A stretch of DNA of 35,878 bases from a virus. Below the pieces are notes generated by a model that had not been told where the DNA came from, made no database searches, and was given only the letters and a program-made list of their open reading frames with translations. The stretch spans positions 1 to 35,878 of IMG/VR virus record IMGVR_UViG_3300032286_001057. One strand, written 5' to 3'. This document shows, one piece after another, positions 6,126-33,323 of this stretch (positions are counted from its first letter, which is position 1; the number at the start of each line of letters is the position of its first letter). A program made the translations under genes and the position numbers.

Positions 6126-7055
6126 ATGAGAAATTTTAAAAACTTAATGGACTTCACAACTTTCTTCAAAACAGAAGAAAAATGTCATAAGTATTTGAAG
6201 TCTATTTTGTGGCAAGAGGGTAAATACTGCCCCTTCTGCGGCGCTGATAAAATCCACGAATACGAATCCAATTTTAAGAAAAATCGCTGCTACTCTTGCA
6301 AACAAGATTTCTCAATTCGCAAAGGAACAATTTTTGATTCTTCTCGCATAAGCCTGCAAAAATGGTTCATGTGCATTTATTTGGTTAATTCAAATAAAAA
6401 AGGCATCTCAAGTTGTCAGTTAGCTAATCAAGTTGGAATTACTCAGAAGTCAGCTTGGTTTGTTTTACAAAGAATCAGAGAGGCTTGCCAATCTAATGAT
6501 TTCACTAATCCATTTAACGGCATCACCGAAATTGACGAGGCTTACTTAGGCGGCAAAGAAGAAAACAGACATGCAAAAGATAAGAGGCTCACAGGCAGAA
6601 AAGAAAAGGCGGTTATAATTGGCTTGGTGAATAGAGATACAAAGCAGGTTAAAGCATTGAAGGTTGTTAGCTCGGAAGCAGAATATCTATTGCCTAAAAT
6701 TTACATGAATGTTGCCGACAACTCAACTATCATCACCGACACTTTACAGGCTTACAAACCATTGAAAAAACACTACACTCACAAAACAGTAAAACATTCA
6801 ATGGGCGAATATGTTAAGAACGATTCGCGCGTAGCTTTCAAGATTCACACTAACACGATTGAGGGATTTTGGGGTGAGTTAAAACGAGGCATAAAGGGAA
6901 TTTATCACTGGGCAAGCCACAAACATATTCAAAAATATTGCAACGAATTTGCTTATCGCTATAACAATAGAGAAATGAAAAATAATGAAAGATTTGTAGA
7001 TTTTCTTAGTGGTGTAGCAAATACGAAATTAACTTATAAAACTTTAACAGCGTAA
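6126..7055 (+). CDS. IS1595-family (ISXO2-like) transposase
   Basis: A 309-residue DDE-type transposase. An N-terminal zinc ribbon has C35, C38, C55 and C58 (CPFCG ... CYSCK). A helix-turn-helix stretch follows around residues 95-115. The ISXO2-like catalytic domain shows EIDEAYLGG (D137), IITDTLQAY (D205) and HTNTIEGFWGELKRG (N243/E246). The gene looks intact. I found no convincing terminal inverted repeats, so it may be a domesticated phage gene or part of a larger element rather than a simple insertion sequence. It is separated from the methyltransferase by only three bases, which suggests one operon. Confidence 0.92.
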   Translation: MRNFKNLMDFTTFFKTEEKCHKYLKSILWQEGKYCPFCGADKIHEYESNFKKNRCYSCKQDFSIRKGTIFDSSRISLQKWFMCIYLVNSNKKGISSCQLANQVGITQKSAWFVLQRIREACQSNDFTNPFNGITEIDEAYLGGKEENRHAKDKRLTGRKEKAVIIGLVNRDTKQVKALKVVSSEAEYLLPKIYMNVADNSTIITDTLQAYKPLKKHYTHKTVKHSMGEYVKNDSRVAFKIHTNTIEGFWGELKRGIKGIYHWASHKHIQKYCNEFAYRYNNREMKNNERFVDFLSGVANTKLTYKTLTA

Positions 7056-31464: not shown

Positions 31465-31465
31465 A

Positions 31466-31499: not shown

Positions 31500-32399
31500 T
31501 TTCATCGAATTACTACTTGGCGGGGAAGTTAACCTCATTCTCTTCCCCGCTACCAATTCATTTCAATTGGTTAGATTTTTAAGCACCTGAATCTTTGAAA
31601 ATGTAACTTATTGAGCTGAAAGGCTTATTGCTTGGAATCACTGCGTAGCGGGGGTTCTGAGAATCACGCTTCCTTAAAAAAGAAGTGTGCCTTGATTATT
31701 TCAAGGCTAGAGGGGAAATTTGAGGGCAAGTTTTAGCGGTTCGGTTTCGAGTCGTGATATGCAGTTCGCCTGAAAAGGAGTATGAAGTGCGGGGCTAAAA
31801 CAATAAACCCAGAAAGTCCAATACTGCTAATGCCTCTTGAGGGCTTAAAATTCTCAAGTAATTATCGCGGCACGGCTTCTGGGTTAAGTCGCAAGACAAA
31901 CCGTGGGAGTAAAGACCAGCCAGAAATGGAAACTCGGGCTAGGGGCGTTTAAAGAATAAGGCGGGTCATTCCCGCAAGTGTTATCTGGAAGCCTCTTAAT
32001 AATGCTGACTAGCTAGATAGTGCTATACCGATTGAAAGTAATCTAGGCGATTAGACGCTGAAAATTCGGGTGGTTTCTAACTTGGTCGCTCGAGCCAACC
32101 TAGCCTAGGTAAAGAAGAAGGCAGAAACAACTAGTGTAGATCTGGTCGCACGGAATTGGGAGCAACGACTTAGTATTTGCTAAGTTAGTATTAGAGGGTG
32201 TCAATACTCTAAACTTCTCATGTAAGGGTTGGTTCAAATCCAACTGTTCAGTTAGCCTTCTGTAAAAAGGCGCTTGATTCTTAGAAACAGGGGTTGAGAG
32301 TGGTGGAACAACTCGTTCGGGAAAGTGAGTTGGTAGAATTCTTTTTTATGGTAGAGGAGACCCGAACCTTCTCTACCGCCAAACCAAGTTCGGGGAATC
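31500..32399 (+). ncRNA. Very long structured RNA (about 0.9 kb), GOLLD/ROOL-like in size and context
   Basis: The interval between two gene blocks has no convincing coding sequence but holds many exact stems: 31520-31528 with 31542-31550 (9 bp); CCAATT/AATTGG at 31553/31565; 31806-31814 with 31877-31885 (9 bp over 62 nt); CTTGAG/CTCAAG at 31836/31853; CACGG/CCGTG at 31871/31901; GTC-GCAA-GAC, a GNRA tetraloop, at 31888; GCGGG/CCCGC at 31961/31971; AGTATT/AATACT near 32200; a T-arm-like hairpin at 32228-32244; GCCTT/AAGGC at about 32254; and stems at 32309 and 32350. It is more GC-rich than its flanks. Phages are known to carry giant ornate RNAs of this size (GOLLD, ROOL). Membership is unproven because I cannot run a covariance search. 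Confidence 0.75.
32309..32394 (+). promoter_or_regulatory. Alternative pseudoknot / loop pairing before the replication gene
   Basis: Hairpin GGTAGAG/CTCTACC (32350-32356, 32371-32377) has CCCGAAC (32361-32367) in its loop. That heptamer is exactly complementary to GTTCGGG at 32388-32394, just before ATG 32400, and also to GTTCGGG at 32315-32321 in the loop of hairpin CAACTC/GAGTTG (32309-32314, 32327-32332). The two pairings exclude each other, and one covers the translation start region. Confidence 0.6.
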
Positions 32400-33323
32400 A
32401 TGTCAATTGGCTTCATAAAGCTACATCGAAAAATAATAGAATGGGAATGGTATTCTGACGTTAATGTTTGTCGGGTATTTCTTCACCTTTTGCTCACAGC
32501 TAACTTTGAAAATAAGAAATGGCAGGGCATAGACATATCAAGGGGTCAGGTAATTACATCACTTGAGAAGCTAGGTAAATCAACCACTCTTACAATTCAA
32601 CAAGTGCGTACTGCACTAAATAAGCTAAAATCAACACACGAAATAACAATCAAAGCAACAAAGCTCCACACCTTCATCACGCTTACAAACTACAATCTCT
32701 ACCAAGACAGAATAATTGAGAGCAACACACCGGATAACACACCGGATAACAATTCATCAACAAACGATCAACAAAGAATCAACAAAGGAGCAACAACTAC
32801 TAAAGAAGGAAAAGAATTAAAAGAACGTGAAGAAGTTAACAATTTAAAATCTCAATTTGAAGAAATTTACAGACTTTACAATCAAGGTAAAAATCTAAAA
32901 GTAATTCCATTCGATAAACAGAAAGCAAAATTTCAGAACTGTTTAAAAAAAATTAGCTTTGATGAACTAAAACAAAACATTGAAGATTATTTAAAGTATC
33001 TCTCAACAGCGACTTGGAGACAAAAGAAATCATTTGATGCGTGGATTAACTCTAGCGAATTTTTTGCTAACGATTGGAAGAGTGAAGGAGCTTTGTCTGG
33101 CAATGATAATCTAACTCTTTCTTCACTAATAGTTAAATTGAATTCAATTGCTGGTAAGCAGTTATTCACAAAAACCGAAATAAGTTATGATGATGTGGTG
33201 CTAAAATGTGAATCTTCTGCTTTAGCTAAAGAGGCTAGAGAACTATCGCAAGATATAAAAGACGAAATCAAGAAAGAAGTTCTTATTGCCCATCCTGGTA
33301 AAAATTTAAGAGTGAGTTATTAA
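32400..33323 (+). CDS. Replication initiator / helicase-loader-like protein
   Basis: 307 residues. The N-terminal 100 (GFIKLHRKIIEWEWYSDVNV, LHLLLTANFENKKWQGIDI, GQVITSLEKLGKSTTLTIQQ, VRTALNKLKSTHEIT) match the winged-helix domain of phage replisome organisers. A polar linker (105-145) with Asn/Thr/Asp follows, then a C-terminal helical domain with FDAWINSSEFFANDWK. It overlaps the DnaB gene by one base, a classic initiator-helicase pair. Initiators of this kind often bind repeats inside their own gene; direct ACACCGGATAAC repeats at 32729-32751 are a candidate. Confidence 0.8.
   Translation: MSIGFIKLHRKIIEWEWYSDVNVCRVFLHLLLTANFENKKWQGIDISRGQVITSLEKLGKSTTLTIQQVRTALNKLKSTHEITIKATKLHTFITLTNYNLYQDRIIESNTPDNTPDNNSSTNDQQRINKGATTTKEGKELKEREEVNNLKSQFEEIYRLYNQGKNLKVIPFDKQKAKFQNCLKKISFDELKQNIEDYLKYLSTATWRQKKSFDAWINSSEFFANDWKSEGALSGNDNLTLSSLIVKLNSIAGKQLFTKTEISYDDVVLKCESSALAKEARELSQDIKDEIKKEVLIAHPGKNLRVSY

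Follow-up and report, generated by a model that had tools for sequence, protein, structure and literature searches.

GOLLD and ROOL are large phage RNAs that assemble through kissing loops; in GOLLD the 3' region is universally conserved and the 5' region less so (PMC12286853). For large phage RNAs of this kind, the leaders of ca. 130 nt described below offer a direct handle on function. In the rep leader of IncI-type plasmids (repZ of ColIb-P9), a pseudoknot arises when a hairpin loop pairs with sequence ahead of the replication gene; the pseudoknot activates, and its competitor is an antisense RNA. The preQ1-I and SAM-II riboswitches are H-type pseudoknots with an A-rich third loop, and the ribosome-binding region is base-paired to one of their loops.

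The locus described here belongs to a phage, i.e. a virus of bacteria, whose IMG/VR record is the whole window analysed, 35,878 bases. Its RNA resembles GOLLD and ROOL in size (ca. 0.9 kb), in being phage-borne, in having related arrays in tRNA islands, and in its complementary loops. Unlike them, it has no Rfam model match, no constant fold and a variable module content, and its 3' end lies directly against a gene's start codon and makes contact with it. Its most constant part is a hairpin (X) with an element before the start codon (S); the rest varies, and there is no match to the GOLLD model. As in the ColIb-P9 repZ leader, a hairpin loop is complementary to the region before a replication gene, but here the competitor lies in cis, as a second copy of the target in the loop of the preceding hairpin. 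As in preQ1-I and SAM-II, a loop is complementary to the ribosome-binding region and the third loop is A-rich, but the sequence that pairs is free to vary, no pocket for a ligand was recognised, and there is a competing hairpin, that of S1. The region is rather likely to serve the replication cassette as a long leader, in which an exchangeable RNA array is followed by a translation switch between a kissing loop and a pseudoknot. Such a leader would probably control the timing of viral DNA copying.

The region before the replication gene

A small upstream ORF stops near 31465, and the gap after it runs to the replication gene (32400–33323, + strand), which encodes a DnaD-like helicase loader (PHROG 2514, E 1.2e-25). 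Apart from ORFs entering from the flanks, none between ca. 31466 and 32400 is longer than 56 amino acids. The G+C content of the gap is 0.41–0.47, compared to ca. 0.31–0.34 in the flanking DNA, and the GC skew is positive. The initial annotation, which had described the gap as more GC-rich than its surroundings and without convincing coding, was correct on both points. The minimum free energy of the fold is −285.5 kcal/mol (z −3.0), and none of 20 shuffles was as low. The promoter that had been proposed for the region was not recovered – promoter-like matches were at the level of chance (12 vs 13.7 in shuffles), with none on the + strand near 31500. The gap is a structured RNA on the + strand, and the structure extends as far as base 32399, directly before the replication gene's AUG. 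The description of a giant structured phage RNA beside replication genes stands as to large size, structure, phage origin, covarying stems and replication setting.

In the whole window no Rfam family reached the gathering score, and at E ≤ 10 the segment 31300–32500 gave chance matches only (best mir-1, E 0.15). The suggestion that this RNA is a member of GOLLD or ROOL was therefore not supported; as these are modelled in Rfam, it belongs neither to them nor to group I and group II introns, tmRNA or OMEGA RNA. Rfam searches of six related contigs found tRNAs only. Against isolate phages, blastn of the window returned nothing except one 30-base match (E 1), the modules of contig L036 had no match, and one array of contig L130 matched tRNA-Gln genes only. 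A T-box was also considered, and was dropped because the T-box sequence is absent.

Modules and their exchange among phages

Relatives were collected from IMG/VR using the replication gene and the DnaB gene as queries, and island pattern scans then enlarged the set to at least ca. 25 contigs with a replication-linked array, plus others with parts of one. The gaps of the relatives have only short islands in common with the window, partly reordered. Profile searches showed that discrete modules of 20–120 nt recur in different combinations upstream of replication-cassette genes in at least ca. 25 IMG/VR contigs. Total array length ranges from ca. 0.13 to 2.3 kb, the longest being that of L036, and the minimal loci (L003, L030 and L033) have X and S within ca. 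130 nt, with most modules missing. The module order in the window is R5c-A-B-I-K-C-PK2-D-pseudoknot-tRNA-like-M15-X-S; a common order is kept in most contigs, while the presence or absence of each module is independent. On this comparison of sequences, the region is a chain of modules, a mosaic, and not one conserved giant fold. The new class of giant RNA suggested for it is correct in part: conservation lies in a group of interchangeable modules, varying in number and partly in order, with a 3' leader, and not in a single 0.9-kb fold.

The first module of the window, R5c (31517–31624; all parts of the window array given here are on the + strand), was recognised by its profile match and its fold. 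It consists of a G+C-rich hairpin (31517–31556) and then a stem-loop common to L008. Module B (31665–31709) is made of two adjacent hairpins and has profile matches to L028, L036, L056 and L075. Module I (31722–31802), closed by GUUUUAGC/GCUAAAAC, is defined by its fold and profile matches to L026 and L036. Module K (31802–31890; profile matches to L070 and L086) holds the previously described stem 31806–31814/31877–31885, which is exact (AACCCAGAA/TTCTGGGTT). In its homologues one A-U pair is replaced by C-G, a compensatory double change, and another A-U by G.U; this comparison covers 3 sequences only. Module C is partial in the window (31884–31949; profile match to 7 other contigs) and contains the GNRA hairpin that had been pointed out before – GUC-GCAA-GAC, ca. 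31888–31897 – which is conserved, with a change of GUC/GAC to GCC/GGC. PK2 (31960–31980), a hairpin with the stem GCGGG/CCCGC, is represented in L102, L107, L122 and L130 by related forms whose stem pairs differ, and by inspection only, its loop may pair with a downstream AGUG as a pseudoknot. Module D (32027–32097) has profile matches to L004, L021 and L025.

Between R5c and B lies the A hairpin (31631–31661), with an invariant apex, UCACUGCGUAGCGGGGG, and a freely changing stem. The top has the form UCA-CUGC-GUA-GCGG-GGG, and the stem below it varies. Its 28 distinct instances contain 55 two-sided cells, compared to 18.7 in shuffles. Among the matches listed, the hairpin is found in roughly twelve groups of virus contigs that blastn does not otherwise show to be similar, and in several of these it is trailed by a terminator-like T run. 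Contigs with the apex are L044, L048, L049, L050, L062, L066, L068, L074, L089, L090 and L094. Within L040–L097, the pattern forms the hairpin in the L049 cluster; in the L041 cluster there is no hairpin, and the pattern hits are probably chance matches in coding sequence. The apex is almost absent (1 match) from 398 genomes of the phylum of the Rickettsiales MAGs mentioned below, its matches in isolate phages and plasmids were weak (E ≥ 1), and no Rfam family covers the hairpin. A literature search found no relevant paper with the A or the M15 sequence. The apex would seem to be a separate, new RNA motif of phages. RNA-domain exchange between phages, together with an apex invariant across unrelated viruses, would suggest a common binding partner.

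Module C moves: it stands before D and M15 in the window, and after M15 or X in L031, L036 and L056. In several contigs X-like sequence is found on the flanks of module C, and in L002 an ORF, which we take to read like an HNH protein, lies between modules. These last two features would suit a mobile intron, or a ribozyme, that carries a gene for an endonuclease in one of its loops. The L002 ORF has no Pfam match, however, no group I or II family was matched, and there is neither an interrupted gene nor a constant core, all of which leaves a mobile element of this kind very unlikely.

tRNA-like units and mixed arrays

Module D is followed by an H-type pseudoknot (32098–32122), ACCU-A-GCCU-AGGU-AAAGAAGA-AGGC, of which there are 17 distinct forms. 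It is 25 nt long and built from four pairs, one nucleotide, four pairs and a third loop, AAAGANNA. The register is fixed – 36 sites qualify, compared to 0–6 with the partner slid – and 7 of the 8 pairs have two-sided changes. Instances were chosen for pairing, so that 100% paired is built in; the evidence comes from the slides and from the changes on both sides of pairs.

The interior of this pseudoknot unit (32124–32247) has a tRNA-like 3' part, with a T arm at 32228–32244. The sequence GGTTCRANYCC at 32231–32241 makes a perfect T arm (0.13 occurrences expected in the window), and tRNA calling on 32124–32247 returned no tRNA. Next is the M15 element (32249–32271), CAGUUAGCCUUCUGUAAAAAGGC. Its segment GTTAGCCTTCTGTAAAAAGGC is found exactly in at least 33 IMG/VR stretches and in 3 contigs of two Rickettsiales MAGs, and these MAG contigs are phage-like. 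In other contigs, units of pseudoknot and M15 recur between genuine tRNA genes, in tRNA islands. Genes with an Acb2/Tad1-hairpin domain are found among the modules of L046/L129 and L130 (above the curated Pfam cut-off) and of L061 (below it); by their Pfam assignment they would belong to the anti-CBASS or anti-Thoeris sponge family.

Because pseudoknot/M15 units stand between genuine tRNA genes elsewhere, and the T arm of the window unit is perfect, it is possible that the upstream modules are separate small RNAs, perhaps tRNA-like decoys. In its full form, this explanation would make the whole region a polycistronic series of small stable RNAs, cut tRNA-like at the module borders, some of them tRNA-like decoys or other anti-defence RNAs, and the Acb2/Tad1-hairpin genes among the modules of L046/L129 and L130 also speak for it. 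Most modules of the window are not tRNA-like, however, the processing sites at module borders are putative, and the putative switch at the start codon is left unexplained; as an account of the entire region, it is rather doubtful. For the upstream part, it can be compatible with a leader that ends in a switch.

A number of other tRNA-like units were seen in these contigs. Module T1, ca. 150 nt long and tRNA-like, has a bulged acceptor stem with compensatory changes, a T arm and an encoded CCA, and its anticodon-like loop carries the palindrome GGUCGACC. It is found at L036:5357–5510 and L130:2356–2510, and in L112 and L114. In the pseudoknot unit at L130:3380–3540, the T arm and the 3' part of the acceptor precede the other tRNA-like parts, and the unit is possibly a permuted tRNA. 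Arrays mixing tRNAs, pseudoknot units and M15 with small genes of the Acb2/Tad1-hairpin domain are found at L130:2100–3960 and in L046, L061 and L129. In L118, a contig with an M15 copy, TGA is seemingly a sense codon near 6753–7000. The use of TGA as a sense codon occurs in some Patescibacteria and their phages.

Complementary sequences before the start codon

The X hairpin (32273–32298), CUUGAUUCUU-AGAAAC-AGGGGUUGAG, is near-invariant and rich in G.U pairs. Across its 19 distinct forms 94% of cells are paired, compared to 37–71% when the arms are slid, and covariation is almost nil, with little two-sided change. A search of 84,980 species genomes of bacteria and archaea gave no match to X. 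It occurs without the S element in L004, L022, L025 and L039. Since no other part is as conserved, and since X can be present with no modules upstream, it is the best candidate for a sensing site.

The most informative part of the locus, absent from the initial annotation, is the putative S1/S'/S2 switch at the start codon. The first hairpin, hp1 (32309–32332), carries the copy S1, GUUCGGG, in its loop (32315–32321). The second, hp2 (32350–32377), has the 7-nt loop S', CCCGAAC (32361–32367), and is followed by a third loop, GCCAAACCAA (32378–32387), and by S2, GUUCGGG (32388–32394), with 5 nt between its end and the AUG at 32400. S' is complementary to both S1 and S2. Pairing of S' with S2 gives hp2 the geometry of a classical H-type pseudoknot, while pairing of S' with S1 would make a kissing complex, and the two are mutually exclusive. 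Their predicted energies are equal in 7 of 9 elements. The third loop is 10 nt in the window and 12–14 nt in most relatives, with GCCAAA..CUACA conserved in other elements.

The complementarity of S1, S' and S2 is kept in 12 elements, among which there are ten different S sequences, and in every S element S2 ends 0–5 nt before the AUG. For hp2 and S':S2 together, two-sided changes are found at 14 of 14 counted pairs (7 of 7 each), with a score of 1.018, compared to 0.280 when shuffled and 0.218 for the best slide. S1:S' has two-sided changes at 7 of 7 pairs (0.907, shuffled 0.258). The helix arms were hand-cut around the complementary segments and concatenated, because MAFFT misaligned the whole S elements, and the percentage paired is thus partly by construction. 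Complementarity between a hairpin loop and the ribosome-binding region, kept by compensatory change, is what marks a pseudoknot-controlled leader, and S':S2 has it across the 12 elements. The two S elements of L002 carry different S sequences, an indication that the pairing takes place inside each element. The putative switch is not universal, given the contigs with X and no S and the loss of S2 in L028, and in L003 S1 pairs only with a bulge. A scan for S elements by the third-loop motif returned at least 103 stretches, which, known members aside, were mostly one unrelated coding family.

The genes after S are non-homologous and mostly involved in replication: DnaD-like loaders, primosomal proteins, an O-like initiator and a helicase. 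In L008 and L030 the element precedes a nuclease-like gene, and in L002 a small ORF. Direct and inverted copies beside a replication gene could also be a DNA-level element, with S1, S' and S2 acting as replication-origin iterons bound by the replication protein. This is very improbable: the hairpin that carries S' as its loop shows covariation of its own, including G.U pairs, and G.U pairs are retained in the modules. The S sequences differ among the window, L002 and L003 despite similar replication proteins, and one S sequence, AGGGGAC, stands before unrelated genes.

The kissing loops, the size, the phage setting and the related arrays near tRNA islands would all agree with a free-standing giant noncoding RNA, a multimer like GOLLD or ROOL, in which S1 kisses the S' of the next molecule and S2 is a side effect. 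A cage requires a constant fold, whereas module content differs between contigs; S2 lies at the AUG and all of its pairs covary, and Rfam gave no match. A multimer of this kind is an unlikely explanation of the locus.

For the preferred reading, a replication leader ending in a switch, comparison among contigs established the modules and their exchange, showed that hp2, S1:S' and S':S2 covary, and placed the element before replication genes. The leader would have two layers. The first (31517–32271) would be a series of independently folding modules – hairpins, pseudoknots and a tRNA-like unit – swapped among phages. The second (32273–32399), made of X, hp1, hp2 and S2, would be a translational switch of the replication gene. 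Both are presumably co-transcribed with the early genes of the + strand. In the putative OFF state, the S':S2 pseudoknot would hinder initiation at the ribosome-binding position; in the putative ON state, S' would kiss the hp1 loop S1 and free the start region. A protein, RNA or ligand at the X hairpin could shift the balance. The three mutually complementary 7-mers at the start codons of replication genes make the function of at least one part testable with a simple reporter.

A wider reading, advanced tentatively, is that uncultivated phages have a combinatorial RNA platform, with more than 20 interchangeable modules, arrays of up to 2.3 kb, and a terminal switch tied to replication control. 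If so, its arrays would be found both in leaders of replication genes and in tRNA islands, with sponge genes of anti-defence type among them, and its parts would include a new pseudoknot, a new hairpin apex and tRNA-like units. Phages would then evolve RNA by module exchange, as they otherwise do proteins, and RNA building blocks would be cargo that phages trade.

The terminase of the window shares 45–48% identity with terminases from phages of Acinetobacter and Pseudomonas; neither this identity nor the presence of M15 in Rickettsiales MAGs settles the host. An IS1595-type transposase gene is found within the phage record, at 6126–7055 of the window.
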